From Devosia litorisediminis (lineage in GTDB: Bacteria > Pseudomonadota > Alphaproteobacteria > Rhizobiales > Devosiaceae): a DNA stretch of 64,000 bases. Shown piece by piece: positions 34,316-57,604 of this stretch. Location: the NCBI RefSeq assembly GCF_018334155.1, contig NZ_JAGXTP010000004.1, positions 1 through 64,000 of the forward strand, in the 5' to 3' direction. Positions within the stretch are counted from its first letter, which is position 1, and the number at the start of each line of letters is the position of its first letter. The notes under the pieces were generated by a model. The model was not told the DNA's origin and did not search any database. It was given only the letters and a program-made list of their open reading frames with translations. The position numbers were made by a program, and so were the translations under genes.

Positions 34316-34369
34316 TTTTGGAGCGGGCGATGGGATTCGAACCCACGACCCTAACCTTGGCAAGGTTAT
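34316..34369 (-). repeat. attL: 54-bp direct repeat, 3' half of tRNA-Gly
   Basis: These 54 bases are identical to 46763-46816. They carry the anticodon stem-loop, T-arm and acceptor 3' strand of tRNA-Gly(GCC), but no 5' half follows; the sequence changes abruptly after position 34369. It is the displaced 3' end left when an element integrated and rebuilt the gene with its own copy. Confidence 0.95.
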
Positions 34370-34506
34370 CTGCCTTTGATACGCCTAGATGCTTGATGAT
34401 GTCTCTTGATGCTAGTTGATAGACTAACCCATTGAATATGCACATTTTCTGTATTCTGTTTGTGTTGAGGAGTGTGTTTTCGGGATTGCCATAGATTGCT
34501 CGAATT

Positions 34507-49304: not shown

Positions 49305-50521
49305 AGCGGCAGGCCGCTCAACAGCCTGGGCCCGCCACTGGATACCCCTGCGGCCGTGCGGATCAGCGCGGTCTTGACCGGCCCGGCCCGATCCACCAGC
49401 CCCAGCCCGAAATCGCGCAGGGCCCGTACCGGCGCCACATCATTGGAAAACAGCCGGTTCAACCCGTCGGTCATCGCCGCCATGCTGGCCGTATCGAGTC
49501 GACGCCAGCTCTGATAGCGCTCCAGCACATCGTCGCTGCCGTGGTCGAGCCCCAGCCGGACCGCTTCGATCACCACTTCGGCCAATGCTGCCACATCCTT
49601 GAGCCCAAGATTGAGCCCCTGTCCGGCAATCGGGTGCACCACATGAGCCGCATCGCCCACCAGTGCCAGTCGTGGCGCAATGAAGGCACGGGCGATCTGC
49701 AATCGCAGCGGAAAGCCCATCAGCTTTTCCTCAACGCTCACCGCGCCCAGCGTGGCACCCATTACCGCTTCGATTTCGCCGGCCAGCGCATCATTGTCGA
49801 GATCAAGATAGCGCTTCGAGGCGTCGTGGCGCTCGGTCCACACCAGCGAAGAGCGATTGCCGGGCAGCGGCAGGCTGGCAAATGGACCCGCGGGCCGGAA
49901 GTGTTCATAAGCCACCCCATTATGGGGCAGATCATGGGCAATGGTGGTGACCAGCCCGGTCTGGCCATAATCATGTCCGGTCACGCCAATGCCTGCCATG
50001 CCGCGCAGCGCCGACTGGCCACCATCGGCCGCCACGATCAGCGGCGCCTTCAATAGCTGGCCATCAGTCAGCGCCAGTTCGGCCAGATCGCCCTGCGTGC
50101 TGTAACCGGTGACTTCGGCTGGGGCGATAATGCGGGCTGCATCGCCCAGCTTGTCCATCAGCACCTGGGTGCTGACCTTGTTGGGCACCATATGGGCAAA
50201 CGCCTCGCCGGGGGCGACATCGCCATCAAAGGTAAGGAATAGCGGCCGGGAAATGTCGCCCTCGCCCGAATCGGTAATCCGCATCGAGTGGATCGGCTGG
50301 GCTTGGGCCAGCATGTCCGGCCACACCCCCAGCGCCTCGAACACGCGCCGCACGCCGGCGGCAATGGCCGAGGCACGATTGTCGCGCGGCACTGACAGTG
50401 GGCGCCGGTCGACCAGCGCCACGCGGATGCCGCGAGCCGATTGGGTCAGTGCCAGGGCCAGCGTCAGACCCACCGGCCCGCCGCCCACGATGATGACATC
50501 AAAACGACCCTGATCGCCCAT
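49301..50521 (-). CDS. UbiH/UbiF-family FAD-dependent hydroxylase
   Basis: The 406-residue protein has FAD motif VIIVGGGPVGLTLALAL near residue 10, the DG motif region (LIVAADGGQSALRG near residue 163) and the second FAD site RLALVGDAAHVVHPIAGQGLNLGLKDV near residue 290. This is the aromatic hydroxylase family that adds oxygen to the ubiquinone ring. Alphaproteobacteria have several, and which ring position this one attacks cannot be told. It is expected to act at the inner membrane on prenylated phenols. Confidence 0.92.
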   Translation of the reverse strand: MGDQGRFDVIIVGGGPVGLTLALALTQSARGIRVALVDRRPLSVPRDNRASAIAAGVRRVFEALGVWPDMLAQAQPIHSMRITDSGEGDISRPLFLTFDGDVAPGEAFAHMVPNKVSTQVLMDKLGDAARIIAPAEVTGYSTQGDLAELALTDGQLLKAPLIVAADGGQSALRGMAGIGVTGHDYGQTGLVTTIAHDLPHNGVAYEHFRPAGPFASLPLPGNRSSLVWTERHDASKRYLDLDNDALAGEIEAVMGATLGAVSVEEKLMGFPLRLQIARAFIAPRLALVGDAAHVVHPIAGQGLNLGLKDVAALAEVVIEAVRLGLDHGSDDVLERYQSWRRLDTASMAAMTDGLNRLFSNDVAPVRALRDFGLGLVDRAGPVKTALIRTAAGVSSGGPRLLSGLPL

Positions 50522-50619
50522 TCCGGCCTCCTAGTTTTGGCCAGACACCTACGCCGATCTGGCCACGCTGCCAAGCTGAGCAGCTTTTGGGCAAAACTTG
50601 CGCAGTTGCCAATATTTTG

Positions 50620-50636
50620 TGCACTCACTTTGCGCT
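50620..50636 (+). promoter_or_regulatory. NtrC-like enhancer candidate upstream of glnK1
   Basis: TGCAC-N6-TGCGCT resembles the NtrC consensus in its left half and partly in the right. The same TGCAC-N6-TGCGCT occurs at 52666-52682 before glnK2. The site is 85 bp upstream of the sigma-54-like promoter, a normal enhancer distance. Confidence 0.45.
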
Positions 50637-50638
50637 GG

Positions 50639-50654
50639 CGCTGATTAATCAGCG
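50639..50654. promoter_or_regulatory. Perfect 16-bp palindrome CGCTGATTAATCAGCG
   Basis: This symmetrical site lies between the NtrC-like site and the glnK1 promoter, also 117 bp from the UbiH-type gene start. It is a probable protein-binding site for one of the two divergent units. No copy was noticed before glnK2. Confidence 0.5.
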
Positions 50655-50720
50655 GTCAGAAACAGTATCCATCCAGATTATGGCAAAGATTTCAGTCGTC
50701 TAGCGATTGCGGCGCAATTC

Positions 50721-50736
50721 TGGCACGGGTCTTGAG
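50721..50736 (+). promoter_or_regulatory. Sigma-54-like promoter of glnK1-amtB1
   Basis: TGGCACG-N4-TTGAG matches the -24 element fully and the -12 element except A for C in the final GC. The start codon is 42 bp downstream. The glnK2 promoter shows the same deviation and the same following TCTA. Confidence 0.65.
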
Positions 50737-50778
50737 TCTAGTTGGCCGTAAAGACATTGCAGCGCTGTGGGAGATTAC

Positions 50779-51117
50779 ATGAAGCTGATTGTTGCGATCA
50801 TCAAGCCATCACGTCTGGAGGAGGTCCGTCAGGCCCTCAACTCACTGGACGTCCACGGCATGACTGTCACCGAAGTCAAAGGTTACGGACGCCAGAAGGG
50901 CCATTCCGAAATCTACCGCGGTACGGAATACGCGGTGCACTTCTTGCCAAAGCTCAAAGTCGAGATCGCCGTTGACGACGATCTGGCCGATCCGGTCACC
51001 ACCGCGATCCGCGACAGTGCCCAGACCGGGCGCATCGGCGACGGCAAGATCTTCGTGCTCGACCTCTTGGCCATAACGCGCATTCGCACCGGTGAAACCG
51101 GTTCGTCAGCGCTTTAA
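50779..51117 (+). CDS. glnK: PII nitrogen regulatory protein (GlnK type, copy 1)
   Basis: The 112-residue protein is a complete PII. It begins MKLIVAIIKPSRLEEVRQAL, the T-loop has GRQKGHSEIYRGTEYAV with the uridylylation site Tyr51, the B-loop has TGRIGDGKIFVLDL, and it ends RIRTGETGSSAL. GlnK reads 2-oxoglutarate, ATP and glutamine status and plugs the ammonium channel when nitrogen is sufficient. GGGAG precedes the ATG. It lies 25 bp before amtB1 under a sigma-54-like promoter. Confidence 0.97.
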   Translation: MKLIVAIIKPSRLEEVRQALNSLDVHGMTVTEVKGYGRQKGHSEIYRGTEYAVHFLPKLKVEIAVDDDLADPVTTAIRDSAQTGRIGDGKIFVLDLLAITRIRTGETGSSAL

Positions 51118-51142
51118 TCGAATTCTCCGGAGAACAAGAACA

Positions 51143-52519
51143 ATGACAGGTCAGAAAACACCGTGGCGCCTGCTCGGGGGCGTTGCCCTGGCGGGCATGC
51201 TGCTCACCCTTCCGGCACTTGGCCAGGAAGCTGCAGCCGAAGCCGTCGAAACGGTCAGTGAAGGCGTCTCCGCTGACGTCGTCTTCATTCTCAACTCGCT
51301 GCTGATGCTGCTGGGCGGCATTCTGGTATTCTTCATGGCTGCTGGCTTTGCCATGGTCGAAGCGGGCATGGTGCGCACCAAGAACGTCTCTATGCAGCTG
51401 CTGAAGAACATCTCGCTCTTCGGCATAGCCTGCCTGATGTACTACCTCATCGGCTACAATCTGATGTATCCGCTGGGCACTTGGGCCATGGGCTCTGACG
51501 AAACCGGCGGCTATCTCGGCGCCTTCGGTATCGCCGTTCTTGAGGCTGTAGGGATTACCGCTGATGGCGCTGATGACTTCTCCTACGCTGCTACCAGCTC
51601 GGACTTTTTCTTCCAGGTGATGTTCTGCGCCACCGCTGCCTCGATCGTTTCGGGCACGCTGGCTGAACGCATCAAGCTGGCACCCTTCCTGGTCTTCACC
51701 GTTGTGCTGACCGGCCTGATCTACCCGATCGCTGGCTCCTGGAAGTGGGGCGGTGGTTTCCTGGACAGCCAGTTCGGCTTCCTTGACTTCGCCGGTTCCA
51801 CCGTTGTGCACTCCGTGGGTGGCTGGGCCGCTCTGGCCGGTGCCATTCTGCTCGGCGCCCGTCGTGGCAAGTACAATGCTGACGGCACCGCCAACGCCAT
51901 GCCTGGTTCGTCCATGCCACTGGCAACCCTGGGCATGTTCATCCTGTGGCTCGGCTGGTTCGGCTTTAACGGTGCATCGCAGCTCGCCATGGGTTCGGTG
52001 GGTGACGTGGCCGATGTCGGTCGCATCATGGCCAACACCAATGCCGGCGCTGTCGGTGGTGCCCTGGCTGCCCTGGTTCTCTCGGGCATCCTCTACAAGA
52101 AGTTCGATCTGACCTTTGTCATCAACGGTGCGCTGGCTGGCCTTGTGGCCGTGACCGCCGAGCCGCTGACCCCGGGTCTGGGGACTGCAACGCTGATCGG
52201 CGCCGTTGGCGGCGTGATCGTCGTGCTGGCTGTGCCAATGCTCGACAAGCTCAAGATCGACGACGTTGTCGGTGCTATCCCCGTCCACCTGCTGGCCGGT
52301 ATCTGGGGCACTATCGCCGTGGTCTTCACCAACTCTGACGCGACCATCGGTGGTCAGCTGGCATCCATCGCCATCGTCGGTGTCTTCGTCTTCGTGGTGA
52401 GCTTCGTGATCTGGTTCATCCTCAAGGCCACCATGGGTCTGCGCCCATCGGCTGAAGATGAAGATGCGGGTCTGGATCTCTCCGAGATCGGCATCGAAGC
52501 CTATCCAGAGTTCAAGTAA
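51143..52519 (+). CDS. amtB: Ammonium transporter AmtB (copy 1)
   Basis: The 458-residue protein has a cleavable leader (LLGGVALAGMLLTLPALG), an extra acidic segment before the first helix (AAAEAVETVSEGVSADVVFIL), and 11 helices. Pore motifs are DFAGSTVVHSVGGWAALAGA with the first His, WLGWFGFNGASQ and IPVHLLAGIWGT with the second His. It is closer to the third Amt at 32923 than to amtB2. It is co-transcribed with glnK1; its stop is followed by two hairpins, the second being the conserved RNA. Confidence 0.95.
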   Translation: MTGQKTPWRLLGGVALAGMLLTLPALGQEAAAEAVETVSEGVSADVVFILNSLLMLLGGILVFFMAAGFAMVEAGMVRTKNVSMQLLKNISLFGIACLMYYLIGYNLMYPLGTWAMGSDETGGYLGAFGIAVLEAVGITADGADDFSYAATSSDFFFQVMFCATAASIVSGTLAERIKLAPFLVFTVVLTGLIYPIAGSWKWGGGFLDSQFGFLDFAGSTVVHSVGGWAALAGAILLGARRGKYNADGTANAMPGSSMPLATLGMFILWLGWFGFNGASQLAMGSVGDVADVGRIMANTNAGAVGGALAALVLSGILYKKFDLTFVINGALAGLVAVTAEPLTPGLGTATLIGAVGGVIVVLAVPMLDKLKIDDVVGAIPVHLLAGIWGTIAVVFTNSDATIGGQLASIAIVGVFVFVVSFVIWFILKATMGLRPSAEDEDAGLDLSEIGIEAYPEFK

Positions 52520-52528
52520 TACGCCTTG

Positions 52529-52554
52529 GGAAGGTCGGGCCCGCCCGGCCTTCC
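52529..52554 (+). terminator. Hairpin directly after amtB1
   Basis: GGAAGGTCGGGC pairs with GCCCGGCCTTCC around a two-base loop. There is no T-tract. A similar GC-rich stem stands at the same place after amtB2. Confidence 0.5.
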
Positions 52555-52566
52555 ACTTCGGCCTTC

Positions 52567-52651
52567 CTTGTCGAAGGCGTGCGGCTCACCCTCTTGGCCC
52601 GCCACAGAGGCTTCCCACTCGCAAAACCGTGGGCCGCACCCCTGCGACAAG
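52567..52651 (+). ncRNA. Candidate structured RNA, copy 1 (downstream of amtB1)
   Basis: The outer stem is CTTGTCG/CGACAAG. An inner stem GTGCGGCTCAC/GTGGGCCGCAC has one G-T pair, and AGG/CCT pairs between them. Inside is a 37-nt core (52589-52625) that folds as CCUCUUGG-CCCG-CCA-C-AGAGG and leaves CUUCCCACUCGCAAA single-stranded. The core is identical, base for base, to 54646-54682, whereas the stems differ but still pair. I cannot match it to a known RNA family. Strand is inferred from the direction of the flanking genes. Confidence 0.6.
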
Positions 52652-52665
52652 CAATGCCTGAAAAA

Positions 52666-52682
52666 TGCACAGTCATTGCGCT
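52666..52682 (+). promoter_or_regulatory. NtrC-like enhancer candidate upstream of glnK2
   Basis: TGCAC-N6-TGCGCT matches the site before glnK1. It is 103 bp upstream of the glnK2 sigma-54-like promoter. A CAAATGGCAG/CTGCCATTTG inverted repeat (52690-52720) lies between. Confidence 0.45.
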
Positions 52683-52769
52683 TTCTGCACAAATGGCAGG
52701 CAAAATCCTGCTGCCATTTGCGGTTCGTCACGCCACCAGCCTGTAACGTCTTGGAAATGTTCAGCTTTA

Positions 52770-52800
52770 AAGCGCCGTGCCAGTTGGCACGGCGCTTGAG
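52770..52800 (+). promoter_or_regulatory. Sigma-54-like promoter of glnK2-amtB2 within a palindrome
   Basis: TGGCACG-N4-TTGAG at 52785-52800 matches the glnK1 promoter. Its -24 half forms the right arm of a 13-2-13 perfect inverted repeat (52770-52797, AAGCGCCGTGCCA and its complement). A second TGGCACG-N4-TTTAA therefore points the other way. The stem could also act as a terminator for transcripts from glnK1-amtB1. Confidence 0.6.
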
Positions 52801-52847
52801 TCTACTGGACCATCCAGACCAAGCGCCAAGCTGCAAAGGGGGCACAC

Positions 52848-53186
52848 GTGAAACTGGTAATCGCCATTATCAAGCCATCCCGTCTCGAAGACGTTCGTCA
52901 GGCTCTTTCCTCGCTCGATGTGCACGGCATGACCGTCACCGAGGTCAAGGGCTATGGCCGTCAGAAGGGGCACTCGGAAATCTACCGCGGCACCGAATAC
53001 GCCGTGCACTTCCTGCCCAAGCTCAAGCTCGAAATCGGCGTCGACGACGCCATTGCCGATGACGTGTCCAACACCATCCGCGACAGCGCCCAGACCGGCC
53101 GCATTGGCGATGGCAAGATTTTCGTTCTCGATCTGCTGGCCGTCACCCGCATTCGCACCGGTGAAACCGGCGCGTCAGCCCTCTAA
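52848..53186 (+). CDS. glnK: PII nitrogen regulatory protein (GlnK type, copy 2)
   Basis: The 112-residue protein is almost identical to copy 1; differences are few (for example LEDVRQALSSLDVHG, LEIGVDDAIADDVSNT). The T-loop with Tyr51 (GRQKGHSEIYRGTEYAV) is unchanged. The start is GTG at 52848 with AAAGGGGG upstream. It probably pairs with amtB2, 20 bp downstream. The near-identity of the two GlnK proteins against clearly different Amt partners suggests gene conversion or strong constraint. Confidence 0.97.
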   Translation: MKLVIAIIKPSRLEDVRQALSSLDVHGMTVTEVKGYGRQKGHSEIYRGTEYAVHFLPKLKLEIGVDDAIADDVSNTIRDSAQTGRIGDGKIFVLDLLAVTRIRTGETGASAL

Positions 53187-53206
53187 GCGTCATCGGAGAA
53201 ACCAAG

Positions 53207-54568
53207 ATGAAGACGTCTAAAATCCTCGGGGGCGCTGCACTGGCCTCCCTTCTGCTGGCACTGCCAGCCTTTGCCCAGGACGCCGTCGCGCCCGCCGCTG
53301 AAGCGGCTGCGGTCGTGGACAAGGGCGATGTGGCCTGGATGCTGGTCTCGACCATGGTCGTGATCGTCATGACCATTCCGGGCCTGGCTCTGTTCTATGG
53401 TGGCCTGGTGCGCGCCAAGAACATCCTGTCGGTTCTCACCCAGGTGTTTCTCGGCTTCTCCATGATCGCCATTTTGTGGGTGGCCTATGGCTATTCGCTG
53501 GCCTTTGCCGGCCCGACCGAAGGAGGCCTGTCCGCCTTTGTCGGCGATTTCTCCAAATTCTTCCTCTCCGGGGTCACCCTTGATTCCACGATCGACACCT
53601 TCTCGGCTGGCTTCCAGCTGCCCGAAATGGTCTTTGTCGTGTTTCAGCTGACCTTTGCCTGCATCACTTCGACCCTGATCGTGGGTGCCATTGCCGAGCG
53701 CATGAAGTTTGGCGCATTGATGGCCTTTCTGGCCATCTGGTTCACCTTCTCCTACATCCCCATGGCGCACATGGTCTGGGCCGGTCCCGGCCTGCTGTTC
53801 AATCTGGGCGCCTATGACTTTGCCGGTGGCACCGTCGTGCACATCAATTCCGGTGTCGCCGCCCTGGTCGCCGCCATCGTGCTTGGCCCGCGTCTTGGCT
53901 ATATGAAAGAGCCGCTGGCCCCGCACAATCTGATGGTCACCTATGTCGGTGCCGGCCTGCTGTGGTTCGGCTGGTTCGGCTTTAATGCCGGCTCCAATCT
54001 CGAAGCCAATGCGCTGACAGCCGTGGCGCTGATCAATACCGTTCTGGCGCCCGCCGCTGGTGCGCTCGCCTGGGCGCTGGGTGAAAAGATCACCCGTGGT
54101 CATGCCTCTGCGCTAGGTGCGGTATCCGGCGCCGTTGCCGGTCTGGTGGCCATCACCCCGGCTGCAGGCTTCTCTGGTGTCGGTGGCGCCATCGTGCTTG
54201 GCGCCGTCTCTGGCGTGGTCTGCCTGTGGGCCGTGGTCAATCTCAAGCCCATGCTCAAATATGACGATAGCCTGGACGTCTTCGGCATCCATGGTGTCGG
54301 CGGTATCGTGGGTGCCCTGGGCACTGCCATTGTTGCTGCGCCGGCCTTTGGCGGCTACCCGCTGGGCGAAGCGGCCGATTACGCGATCGGTGGCCAGTTC
54401 ATGATCCAGCTGACTGCCGTGGCGATCGCCGTGGTCTGGTCGGGTGTGGTGGCCCTGGTAGCCATGCTGATCGTCAAGGCCATCTTTGGCGGCGCGCGTG
54501 TGCCCGATTCGGCCGAAAGCGATGGTCTGGATCTCTCCACCCATGGCGAACGCGCCTACAACAACTAG
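53207..54568 (+). CDS. amtB: Ammonium transporter AmtB (copy 2)
   Basis: The 453-residue protein has a leader (GGAALASLLLALPAFA-QD) and 11 helices. It is the classical E. coli-like AmtB: ALFYGGLVRAKNILSVL, DFAGGTVVHINSGVAALVAA with the first pore His, WFGWFGFNAGSNLEAN, and DVFGIHGVGGIVGALGT with the second His. The C-terminal tail (GLDLSTHGERAYNN) is the GlnK-docking type. Its stop is followed by a GC-rich stem, the second copy of the conserved RNA and a strong terminator. Confidence 0.96.
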   Translation: MKTSKILGGAALASLLLALPAFAQDAVAPAAEAAAVVDKGDVAWMLVSTMVVIVMTIPGLALFYGGLVRAKNILSVLTQVFLGFSMIAILWVAYGYSLAFAGPTEGGLSAFVGDFSKFFLSGVTLDSTIDTFSAGFQLPEMVFVVFQLTFACITSTLIVGAIAERMKFGALMAFLAIWFTFSYIPMAHMVWAGPGLLFNLGAYDFAGGTVVHINSGVAALVAAIVLGPRLGYMKEPLAPHNLMVTYVGAGLLWFGWFGFNAGSNLEANALTAVALINTVLAPAAGALAWALGEKITRGHASALGAVSGAVAGLVAITPAAGFSGVGGAIVLGAVSGVVCLWAVVNLKPMLKYDDSLDVFGIHGVGGIVGALGTAIVAAPAFGGYPLGEAADYAIGGQFMIQLTAVAIAVVWSGVVALVAMLIVKAIFGGARVPDSAESDGLDLSTHGERAYNN

Positions 54569-54578
54569 TCCCGCAAGG

Positions 54579-54604
54579 CCCGGCGGCGGATCGCTGCCGC
54601 CGGG
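54579..54604 (+). terminator. Hairpin directly after amtB2
   Basis: CCCGGCGGC pairs with GCCGCCGGG around an eight-base loop. There is no T-tract. Its position mirrors the hairpin after amtB1. Confidence 0.5.
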
Positions 54605-54619
54605 ACCTGTCTCGAGACT

Positions 54620-54710
54620 GGTTGAGCGCGGCGTGCGGCTCGTGTCCCTCTTGGCCCGCCACAGAGGCTTCCCACTCGCAAACAGCACGGGCTGCACTCC
54701 GCGCTCAACC
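54620..54710 (+). ncRNA. Candidate structured RNA, copy 2 (downstream of amtB2)
   Basis: The outer stem GGTTGAGCGCGG/CCGCGCTCAACC is perfect over 12 bp. The inner stem GTGCGGCTCGTG/CACGGGCTGCAC pairs with two G-T wobbles. The enclosed 37-nt core (54646-54682) is identical to copy 1. Compared with copy 1, the outer stem is wholly different and the inner stem swaps CAC/GTG for GTG/CAC, both changes keeping the pairing. A strong terminator follows 6 bases later, so a defined transcript end is available. Confidence 0.62.
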
Positions 54711-54716
54711 ATCCCG

Positions 54717-54743
54717 GACCCGGCTCACCGCCGGGTCTTTTTG
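54717..54743 (+). terminator. Intrinsic terminator of glnK2-amtB2
   Basis: GACCCGGC pairs with GCCGGGTC around TCACC and is followed by TTTTTG. Confidence 0.92.
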
Positions 54744-54780
54744 TTGTCCCACAGGGGTTTTCGCCCGCCCGCGGCGATGG

Positions 54781-54796
54781 TTAGCCTTGGGTTAAC
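54781..54796 (+). promoter_or_regulatory. CtrA-like box upstream of ftsK
   Basis: TTAG-N7-TTAAC matches the alphaproteobacterial CtrA site (TTAA-N7-TTAAC) with one change, 64 bp before ftsK. GGGTTAACCC at 54789-54798 overlaps it. Cell-cycle control of a division gene would fit. Confidence 0.45.
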
Positions 54797-54859
54797 CCGA
54801 CCCCACTAGCATGGCCGCTGATTGAGCCCGGAACGTGCCGGGCCACTTCGGACACGCCC

Positions 54860-57604
54860 ATGCCCAGCTCACCTTCGCCCGTACTCGACGAAATTCGCTC
54901 AGTGCCACAGCGTGGCACCCGCGCCTCGACCAAGCCCTTGCCCACGCCGCCACCGGCGCTGGCGATTCGCATTCCCGTGCGCGTCGCTGGTCTGCTGGTT
55001 CTGGCACTGGTCGCTATCTGCCTGGCCGCCCTGGCGTCCTGGTCCGTCGATGATCCAAGCTTTACCTATGCCACCGCCAAACCCGCCGCCAACTGGCTGG
55101 GCTTTCCGGGCGCCGTGATCGCCGACACGCTGTTTCAGGTGTTTGGTCTGGCCGCGCTCGTCATGCTGGTGCCACCTGCATTGTGGGGCTGGACCTTTGC
55201 CCGCCGCCGCATGCCTACCCGCATGGGTCTGCGCCTGCTGGGCTGGATCGGCGCAACCTTGCTGGGCGCCGGCGTGCTGGCCTTTGTCGCCATGCCGGCC
55301 AGCTGGCCCCTGCCAACCGGGCTGGGCGGCCTGATTGGCTCGCTGTTCACAACGCTGGCTGCACTGGTCACGGGCGCGCAGCCTCAGGCTGTCACCACCG
55401 TGCTGTTTGCCATCATCATTGCCGTGCCCGCACTGGCCCTGTTCTGGACCGCCATGGGGCTGGGTGCCTCGGTGCCGACCGGCCCGCGCAAGCCCGCCAA
55501 ATCTGCCCGGGGCGCTGCTGCAAATACGGCCGCACCGCAGACCGACGAGCCCGAGACCAATCCGATTGTCGATATCGCCCTGGGGGCGGTGGTCCATATG
55601 GGCTATTCCCTGCGTACCGCCTATCGCCGGGCCCGCGAGAGCCACGCCGAGCGTCATGCGGCCGAAGCGGCCAGCTGGCGCGAAGATGAGGTTGAACCAA
55701 GCCTGGACGGCAAAGGGTCTGCTGACCAGCGTCACGAGCCCGCCCTGGCGCCGACGCAGCGCCGCATCCACGCGCCGGTCGAGCCTGCCTTTACGGCGGA
55801 CTTCACCGCCGAACCGGCTCATCACGTCACCCCAGAGGTTTCCGCCCGCATCAATGCGCGGCCCAGCTATGACGATACCGAACTCGACTACCCCGATGAG
55901 GTCGAGGACGACATGCCGTTTGTCGCCGATGTGCCGGTGGCGCCTACCAATCACCGCCAGCAGGGCGATTCGCGCTTCCATCCGGCCGATCCGTCCAAGC
56001 CGCGCGTTACCGCGCCAGCCCCGCGCCCGCAGCCGGGCAACCGCATTGCCCGCGAAGCCCAGACCTCGTTCCTCGATGAACCCGGCGGCTTTGAGCTGCC
56101 GCCGCTGAGCCTGTTGGCCGAGCCCATGCATAAGGGCCCCTCGCCCGAGCACGCGCCCGAGCGGCTCGAGGAAATGGCCCGTCAGCTTGAAGGCGTGCTC
56201 GAAGATTTCGGCGTCAAGGGCGACATCATCAATGTCCGCCCCGGCCCGGTCGTTACCCTGTTTGAGCTTGAACCAGCCCCCGGCATCAAATCGAGCCGCG
56301 TGATCTCGCTGGCCGATGATATTGCCCGCTCCATGAGCGCCATCTCCGCCCGTGTGGCGGTGGTGCCCGGCCGCAATGCCATCGGTATCGAGCTGCCCAA
56401 CGACAACCGCGAAACCGTCTATTTCCGCGAAATGCTGGCCAGCTCCGACTTCGAGAAAATGAAGGGCAAGCTGCCCATCTGCCTGGGCAAGACCATTGGC
56501 GGCGAACCCGTCATTGCCGATCTGGCGCGCATGCCGCATCTGCTGATCGCCGGCACCACCGGTTCGGGCAAGTCGGTGGGTATCAACACCTTCATTCTCA
56601 GCCTGCTCTACCAGATGACGCCCGAGCAGTGCCGCATGATCATGATCGATCCCAAAATGCTCGAACTGAGCATTTATGACGGCATTCCCCATCTGCTGAC
56701 CCCGGTCGTGACCGATCCGCAAAAAGCGGTGGTGGCGCTCAAATGGGCCGTGCGCGAGATGGAAGATCGCTATCGCAAGATGAGCAAGATCGGCGTCCGC
56801 AACATTGACGGCTTCAACCAGCGCGTCAGCGAAGCGGCCAAGGAAGGCAAGACCATCAGTCGCACCGTGCAGACCGGCTTTGATCGCGAAACGGGCGAGG
56901 CCATCTTCGAGACCGAGGAATTCCAGCTCGAAGTGCTGCCCTATATCGTGGTGATCGTCGACGAAATGGCCGACCTGATGATGGTGGCCGGCAAGGACAT
57001 TGAAGGCGCCATCCAGCGCCTGGCGCAGATGGCCCGTGCCGCTGGCATCCACATCATCACCGCCACCCAGCGTCCTTCGGTGGACGTGATCACCGGCACC
57101 ATCAAGGCCAACTTCCCCACGCGTATCTCGTTCATGGTCACCTCTAAGATCGATTCGCGCACCATTCTGGGTGAGCAGGGCGCCGAACAGCTGCTGGGCA
57201 ATGGCGACATGCTCTATATGGCCTCGGGCGGCCGCACCAAGCGTCTGCATGGTCCGTTTGTGTCCGATGCCGAAGTCGAAGCAGTGGTCACCCACCTCAA
57301 GAGCCAGGGCGCGCCGGATTATCTCGATTCGGTCACCGAAGAAGCTGATGGCGAGATGGATGATGGCGCCAGCGGGGGCGGTGGCGGCGATGGCTATGCC
57401 GGTTCGGGCGACGAGCTCTACGACAAGGCCGTCCATATCGTGCTGACCGACAAGAAGGCCTCGACCTCCTATGTTCAGCGGCGACTGGCCATTGGCTACA
57501 ACAAGGCGGCCACGCTGATCGAGCGCATGGAACGCGAAGGCGTTATCAGCCCGGCCAACCATGCCGGCAAGCGTGAAATCCTGGTGGGTGGCGATCAATA
57601 CTGA
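54860..57604 (+). CDS. ftsK: DNA translocase FtsK
   Basis: The 914-residue protein has an N-terminal membrane part with four helices (about residues 35-215), an acidic Pro-rich linker to about residue 430, and the motor domain starting near [23 protein letters not shown]. Walker A is [13 protein letters not shown] near residue 565 and Walker B is [13 protein letters not shown] near 700. A C-terminal gamma winged helix (about 848-914: [28 protein letters not shown]) should read KOPS sites. It couples division to chromosome segregation at the septum. It has its own promoter region with a CtrA-like box. Confidence 0.97.

Follow-up and report, generated by a model that had tools for sequence, protein, structure and literature searches.

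A new structured-RNA family behind the ammonium-channel genes of glnK-amtB operons in the Devosia family

The window analysed here, the first 64,000 nucleotides of contig NZ_JAGXTP010000004.1 of Devosia litorisediminis, contains two tandem operons, glnK1-amtB1 and glnK2-amtB2, followed in the list of open reading frames by an ftsK gene, and behind each of the two ammonium-channel genes (amtB) lies a hairpin built around one and the same 37-nt core. This arrangement raises the question whether the two hairpins are copies of a repeat, ends of a message without a specific partner, or a functional RNA, and what such an RNA might act on. The analysis described below leads us to conclude that the element represents a new family of structured RNAs, characteristic of the Devosia family of bacteria. 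It is situated in the 3' untranslated region (UTR) that follows amtB in glnK-amtB operons and very probably functions as an RNA linked to nitrogen supply; nitrogen control in Devosia and its relatives would thereby gain an RNA family.

A hairpin with a fixed core behind two ammonium-channel genes

The stretches 52589-52625 and 54646-54682 are fully identical, in agreement with an initial annotation made from the letters of the window. Behind each amtB stop codon a GC-rich stem-loop comes first and then a hairpin of about 90 nt, the stem of which starts 48 nt past the amtB1 stop and 52 nt past the amtB2 stop; the spacing, the preceding GC-rich stem and the terminator after the second copy had all been described in that annotation, and the coordinates bear them out (Table 1). 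The element consists of an outer stem P1 of 11 positions, a mismatch with a nearly constant C on its 5' side, an inner stem P2 of 12 pairs (11 in copy 1, 12 in copy 2), a hairpin P3 made of five pairs, a bulged C, three pairs and the loop CCCG, and finally an unpaired tail of 15 nt. Alignment to a covariance model (R2, see below) confirms that the letters of the stems differ between the two copies while pairing is kept in both. The core lies within the stem as originally described, except that the first C of the repeat in copy 1 (52589) already belongs to P2. The predicted folds likewise match the proposed core hairpin with its enclosing stem, giving z-scores of -4.15 and -6.41 for the two copies, with none of 200 shuffled sequences equally stable.

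A chance repeat was rejected, as the core occurs only twice in the 3.74-Mb genome of the strain at up to three mismatches and a reversed pattern used as control does not occur at all. A model search of the same genome at E-values up to 1 revealed no further copy except a reverse-strand match; such antisense matches were discarded as echoes of the palindromic stem. A scan of the window with Rfam 15 at curated scores gave two tRNA matches only, and an E-value search of 52400-54900 gave no match over either element, so that the absence of a matching Rfam family, already suggested in the initial annotation, holds in both searches.

To assess the conservation of the structure more quantitatively, we used two alignments. 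A1 comprises 61 distinct sequences collected by an exact or near-exact core, leaving out identical rows, rows cut by a contig end and one chance match in another phylum (L037); because it was gathered via the core, part of the invariance that the core shows there follows from the selection itself. A3 comprises 91 distinct sequences including distant genera; fitting it to the model biases it towards the structure, yet the outer stems align with few gaps. In A1, 96.1% of cells pair and two-sided changes are found in 14 of the 31 pairs (184 two-sided cells versus 46.5 in shuffles and at most 37 in controls with slid partners), and in A3 95.3% of cells pair with two-sided changes in 22 of 31 (354 cells versus 90.0 in shuffles and 43-60 in slid controls). 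Counted along a tree of the neighbouring AmtB proteins, which holds 89 of the 91 rows (L056 and L080 were dropped for too little upstream sequence), the changes amount to 161 two-sided events spread over 22 pairs; sliding the partner leaves 4-15 events, spread over 3-10 pairs. Pairing through P1 stands at 91-100%, bar one position near P2 at 36%, and drops to 62, 43 and 29% just outside P1; this sharp fall shows that the stem has a set length. G-U pairs outnumber A-C mispairs in P1 and P2 (GU/UG 135 versus AC/CA 31), which identifies the RNA as the product of the + strand. At columns 10 and 114 of A3 (P1, near P2), a C-C or other mismatch is present in 58 of the 91 copies, the stem being otherwise paired.

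The covariation is thus unusually strong, and the three counts, all derived from sequence comparison, strongly support a structured RNA whose stem of fixed length is kept by compensatory change. The original argument, that selection on pairing around a fixed core marks a structured RNA, is borne out by A1, A3 and the AmtB tree alike.

Distribution of the element and its place behind amtB

Allowing three mismatches, 28 of the 36 further genomes examined from the genus carry the core in one or two copies; none of the 24 genomes taken from the order outside the family carries it. A scan of named genomes with a 20-nt pattern returned 54 stretches, all but one titled Devosia, Hyphomicrobiales, Rhizobiales or Alphaproteobacteria; since the two sets overlap in genomes, their counts are not additive. 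An amtB match is in view upstream in 51 of the 54 stretches, while two more (L043, L067) are cut too near to see amtB but have ftsK downstream. The last, L037 from Verrucomicrobiota, was rejected as a chance match of the pattern.

The covariance models R1, built from A1 and serving as a less core-biased probe, and R2, built from A3, were used for wider searches, which ran with stricter filters for the family and order (R1) and for the class (R2), so that weak matches were lost. At E-values up to 0.01, R1 finds the element in 105 of 136 genomes of the own family, spread over 10 of 16 genera (own genome included; in G034 the contig ends within the match), and in 95 of the 119 family genomes of good quality. 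In an even sample of the order, seven of 199 genomes match (again with the own genome), six of them in the own family; the seventh, G226, proved to be a plain palindrome without glnK or amtB (L144) and was rejected. Across a sample of the class, R2 matches two of 385 genomes, namely the own genome and one weak match (G391, L269), likewise set aside, with no match to amtB, glnK, ftsK, ubiH or lolA nearby. Among 40 regions around model matches (L126-L165), an amtB match ends 36-156 nt before the element in 39, the exception being L144. No such element was seen by eye in the regions downstream of AmtB relatives from other families among the matches listed. As a side observation, one metagenome-assembled genome of Devosia ginsengisoli (G015; L057 and L084) has two elements on a single contig, separated by about 0.73 Mb and both preceded by an amtB; both copies may lie outside a tandem, or the assembly may be mixed.

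Two identical cores in one genome are also what would be expected of a mobile or extragenic palindromic repeat with varying arms, the alternative named in the initial annotation. Such a repeat is now extremely improbable: the own genome holds no other copy, the family loci checked are syntenic behind amtB, and neither a blastn search of plasmids and phages with copy 2 nor a scan of viral contigs for an exact 18-nt pattern turned up a copy. A REP-like (repetitive extragenic palindrome) element with many copies in unrelated places was rejected on the same grounds.

The conserved tail and the possible modes of action

The tail is, across the aligned genera, the part of the element that is least free to change. 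The usual P3 is present in 71 of the 91 rows of A3, UUCCCACUCGCA in 82 and UUCCCAC in 90, and the tail is unpaired in the predicted folds of both window copies. The loci L126-L142 and L145-L151, which are mostly the most divergent from the core, account for 26 of these rows; P3 departs from the usual in 17 of the 26, and 16 of the 17 retain the exact UUCCCACUCGCA. In L132 the P3 hairpin has an altogether different sequence, and in nine loci of genus g39 the P3 loop is larger; in L139 both P3 and tail differ. Eight further rows carry the tail variant UUCCCACGC, all with the usual P3, and in one both parts are usual. P3 looks like a platform for this less variable tail. A coding role of the core was rejected, given that the lengths of P3 and of the joints differ out of frame and that the L132 hairpin has another sequence. 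The variant UUCCCACGC occurs in one same-genus group (L131, L145, L147-L151), and a true target of the tail should carry a matching change in these genomes. The tail variant CUUCCCACGC may resemble a stretch of 16S rRNA, a likeness that is not used as evidence.

The replaceable P3 bears on the idea of a 3'-UTR aptamer, in which a nitrogen metabolite would alter mRNA decay or readthrough. Aptamers typically combine a conserved core with helices of variable sequence, and the host operon is a nitrogen operon; a hairpin that can be exchanged for another (L132, L139 and the nine g39 loci) would be unusual for a binding pocket, however, and no obvious expression platform lies downstream, which makes an aptamer quite unlikely. 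We see an equally slim chance for a 3'-UTR sensor, in which the tail on its exactly sized stem would bind either a metabolite or a PII-linked protein as a signal of nitrogen status and decide between destruction of the glnK-amtB message and release of an RNA acting in trans; we know of no such switch behind ammonium-channel genes. The glnA and Downstream-peptide motifs, glutamine-sensing RNAs of cyanobacteria, are likewise structured and tied to nitrogen genes, yet they are leaders, located upstream of or at the start of their gene, and the element instead follows amtB and matches no Rfam model.

The surroundings of the element speak to its expression. Of 103 distinct 180-nt stretches upstream of glnK, a set that includes genomes lacking the element, 97 contain a sigma54-like site (YGGCRY-N5-TTGM); control stretches taken from within the same glnK genes contain none. 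A sigma70-like site was not found in 50400-54950, where 0.9 would be expected by chance, although a consensus scan cannot exclude other promoters. The proposed nitrogen regulation thus gains indirect support, by way of the sigma54-like sites. In 88 of 91 cases the 45 nt that precede the element form a fold below -9 kcal/mol. A terminator-like site follows in the next 130 nt in 45 of 90 cases; among random stretches drawn from these loci the figure is 100 of 1820, a lenient control in that such stretches are mostly coding. Where the sequence behind the element is in view, it holds ftsK, further amtB-type genes or a terminator-like site. These figures also bear on the explanation of the hairpin as a mere terminator, processing spacer or decay barrier with no specific partner. 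A very stable hairpin after a stop codon suits such a role, but an invariant tail would be unneeded, and a GC-rich stem already lies upstream and, in half the loci, a terminator-like site downstream; we regard this explanation as unlikely.

Our preferred reading, held tentatively at a probability of roughly 0.45, is that of a nitrogen-controlled 3'-UTR RNA whose tail would base-pair with other RNAs in trans. The element would be co-transcribed with its operon from a sigma54/NtrC-type promoter under nitrogen limitation and cut from the mRNA, either by RNase III acting on the duplex of 24 positions or by RNase E between the GC-rich stem and P1. The tail of the released RNA would then pair with other RNAs, so that ammonium shortage would adjust genes besides the channel, and a single copy per genome, behind any amtB, would suffice.

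The distribution of the element over tandem operons is of interest in this respect. The tally was made by model searches, with G033 taken from its two loci, and covers 16 genomes in which the sequence behind both amtB genes is in view. The element follows amtB1 only in nine (L126, L127, L132, L153, L158, L160, L164, L165, L050), amtB2 only in one (L051) and both genes in four (the window, L131, L136, G033), and an intact element follows neither in two (G070, and G130 with a weak trace). Usually, then, one copy behind either amtB is kept, which speaks for action in trans. In the same-genus genome G070 (L226, L240) the tandem operons are the same and the GC-rich stem behind amtB is retained, with the element behind neither gene, making it a natural knock-out for comparison. 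The weak R2 match in G130 lies about 60 nt past amtB1 (31.9 bits in sense, 24.2 bits on the other strand; L230:784-884 and L237:2878-2978 are one place); it has a P2-like stem, the UUCCCAC tail is absent, and it is possibly a decayed or altered member of the family.

The closest known mode of action is, by analogy, that of GlnZ, an RNA from the glnA 3' UTR of Enterobacteriaceae, induced by nitrogen limitation and carrying a conserved seed, Hfq-dependent, released by RNase E and targeting sucA (PMC9731577). The two would be alike as 3'-UTR RNAs of a nitrogen-assimilation gene with a conserved seed, the mode that we propose for the element, and would differ in the host gene (glnA, as opposed to amtB) and in the bacterial branch. 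The element does lie in the 3' UTR of a protein gene on the same strand, the mRNA presumably reaching it, and its unpaired tail with the nearly invariant UUCCCAC provides a conserved single-stranded seed. If the trans-acting RNA is real, enterobacteria (glnA) and the relatives of Devosia (amtB) would have evolved, independently of each other, the release of a regulatory RNA from the 3' UTR of a nitrogen uptake or assimilation gene. Another point of comparison is MmgR of Sinorhizobium, an alpha-r8 RNA listed under RF00519 (PMC2873474) and nitrogen-controlled (PMC7143759); the alpha-r8/MmgR-SisA group has an NtrC-activated member, MmgR, and a short anti-Shine-Dalgarno-like motif (PMC7143759, PMC8401924, PMC12559287, PMC2873474). 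MmgR resembles the element as an alphaproteobacterial RNA and would resemble it in nitrogen control. It is 77 nt long in Sinorhizobium, lies in another place and probably differs from the element in being a separate gene with its own promoter; the alpha-r8/suhB model RF00519 gave no match to the element in the Rfam scans of the window and of 52400-54900. Neither an RNA behind amtB in the Devosia group nor regulatory-RNA work in Devosia appeared among the literature matches listed, which covered titles and the starts of abstracts of papers outside subscription.

Several observations weigh against an RNA acting in trans. Firstly, some genomes bearing amtB lack the element, for instance G070, G013, G078 and G100. 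Among 31 family genomes without a match, 17 were examined, and an AmtB relative (E-value up to 1e-30) was found in ten and none in seven; of the 15 amtB loci from those genomes, 12 were searched with R2 and gave no match up to E 0.1, save the weak one in G130. Secondly, since half of the elements have no terminator-like site in reach, a U-rich 3' end of the Hfq type is not general. Thirdly, searches for a target yielded no convincing candidate. The complement of 13 nt of the tail (up to two mismatches) matches the own genome 53 times, two of these being the elements, versus 60 for the reversed control, and the 12-nt complement matches 41 genomes 64 times, of which 38 are elements, leaving 26 versus 28 in the control. 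With 10 nt in 14 genomes there were 120 matches, 17 of them elements, leaving 103 versus 70; the groups that recur between genomes fall in long open frames. The recurrence was judged from 80 stretches. These come from 12 genomes of the 14, since G015 and G029 were left out, as was part of G012; 34 of the stretches form 11 recurring groups and 46 are singletons, and the two examples inspected per recurring group lay in long open frames, with coding matches of the EWE type.

At sucA, where 16 loci were collected and the start codon is clear in eight (L381-L384, L388, L391, L392, L394) and doubtful or wrong in the others, pairing of the tail at the start is no better than the shuffle mean in six of the clear eight; it is better in L384 (-15.2 versus -12.6) and L391 (-15.7 versus -15.1). 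Taken together, the target searches weaken the trans reading, though pairings of six to eight bases or gapped ones would be missed by them. Two minor matches were noted alongside: four of the 12 genomes (L303, L320, L336, L361) have the 10-nt complement close to where an open frame begins, which probably reflects a protein motif (EWE) but may instead mark a target, and the own genome has a single 13-bp match, including one G-U pair, towards the 3' end of an open frame (L169).

The lack of a convincing trans target in these searches favours a second possibility, nearly as good as trans pairing: a cis-acting 3'-UTR element on whose tail a protein (of the ProQ/FinO type, a cold-shock protein or another single-strand binder) would set the stability or fate of the glnK-amtB mRNA, with no action in trans. 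Its position in the amtB 3' UTR in the family loci checked is in keeping with such a role, a stem of fixed length with an invariant single strand would suit a protein site, and no clear pairing partner was found within the operon. In this last scan the tail was run against 57 loci and the five best places of each were read by eye; the recurring places lie in ftsK coding sequence (about -16 kcal/mol) and in early amtB coding sequence, and a weak place just before ftsK (about -13) recurs in six or seven loci of one clade. On the other hand, most tandem genomes viewed keep one copy only and not always behind the same amtB, and an invariant stretch of about 12 nt is long for a single-strand protein site. 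A protein-bound cis element is accordingly a serious, if tentative, possibility beside the preferred trans-pairing RNA. Two copies in one strain, a tail of 12 nt and element-less relatives such as G070, G013, G078 and G100 make the family well suited to experiment.

Layout of the operons in the window

The coordinates of the operons and of both copies are collected in Table 1. Names of the operon genes were assigned from sequence; glnK1 we take to encode a PII protein on the basis of its sequence and synteny.

Table 1. Features of the tandem glnK-amtB operons and of the two element copies (window positions)
Feature	Position	Strand	Basis or remark
sigma54-like promoter TGGCAC-N5-TTGA before glnK1	50721..50735	+	site read in sequence
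glnK1 (presumed PII protein gene)	50779..51117	+	open reading frame
amtB1 (ammonium channel)	51140..52519	+	open reading frame; start codon approximate; stop TAA 52517-52519
GC-rich stem-loop between amtB1 stop and copy 1	52529..52554	+	sequence
Element copy 1, whole hairpin (P1-P2-P3-tail)	52567..52651	+	R2 match 52566-52654, 88.2 bits; fold
Copy 1, P1 5' arm	52567..52577 (3' arm 52641-52651)	+	R2 alignment
Copy 1, P2 5' arm	52579..52589 (3' arm 52629-52639)	+	fold, R2 alignment
Copy 1, P3 hairpin CCUCUUGG-CCCG-CCAcAGAGG	52590..52610	+	fold; A1 columns 33-53
Copy 1, single-stranded tail CUUCCCACUCGCAAA	52611..52625	+	most conserved part across genera
sigma54-like promoter TGGCAC-N5-TTGA before glnK2	52785..52799	+	sequence
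glnK2	52848..53186	+	open reading frame
amtB2	53207..54568	+	open reading frame; stop TAG 54566-54568
GC-rich stem-loop between amtB2 stop and copy 2	54579..54604	+	sequence, fold
Element copy 2, whole hairpin	54621..54709	+	R2 match 54620-54712, 108.9 bits; fold
Copy 2, P1 5' arm	54621..54631 (3' arm 54699-54709)	+	R2 alignment
Copy 2, P2 5' arm	54633..54644 (3' arm 54686-54697)	+	R2 alignment
Copy 2, P3 hairpin	54647..54667	+	fold
Copy 2, single-stranded tail	54668..54682	+	alignment, conservation
Intrinsic-terminator-like hairpin with T run, 3' of copy 2	54716..54743	+	hairpin 54716-54738

Within 50779-54568 the two glnK genes share 79% identity along a 300-nt stretch, whereas identity between the two AmtB proteins is only about 32%. 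This suggests an old tandem and not a recent duplication. Elsewhere in the window, a tRNA-like match at 34326-34385 scores 29.1 bits against the Rfam cut-off of 29 and may represent a degenerate tRNA or a chance match.

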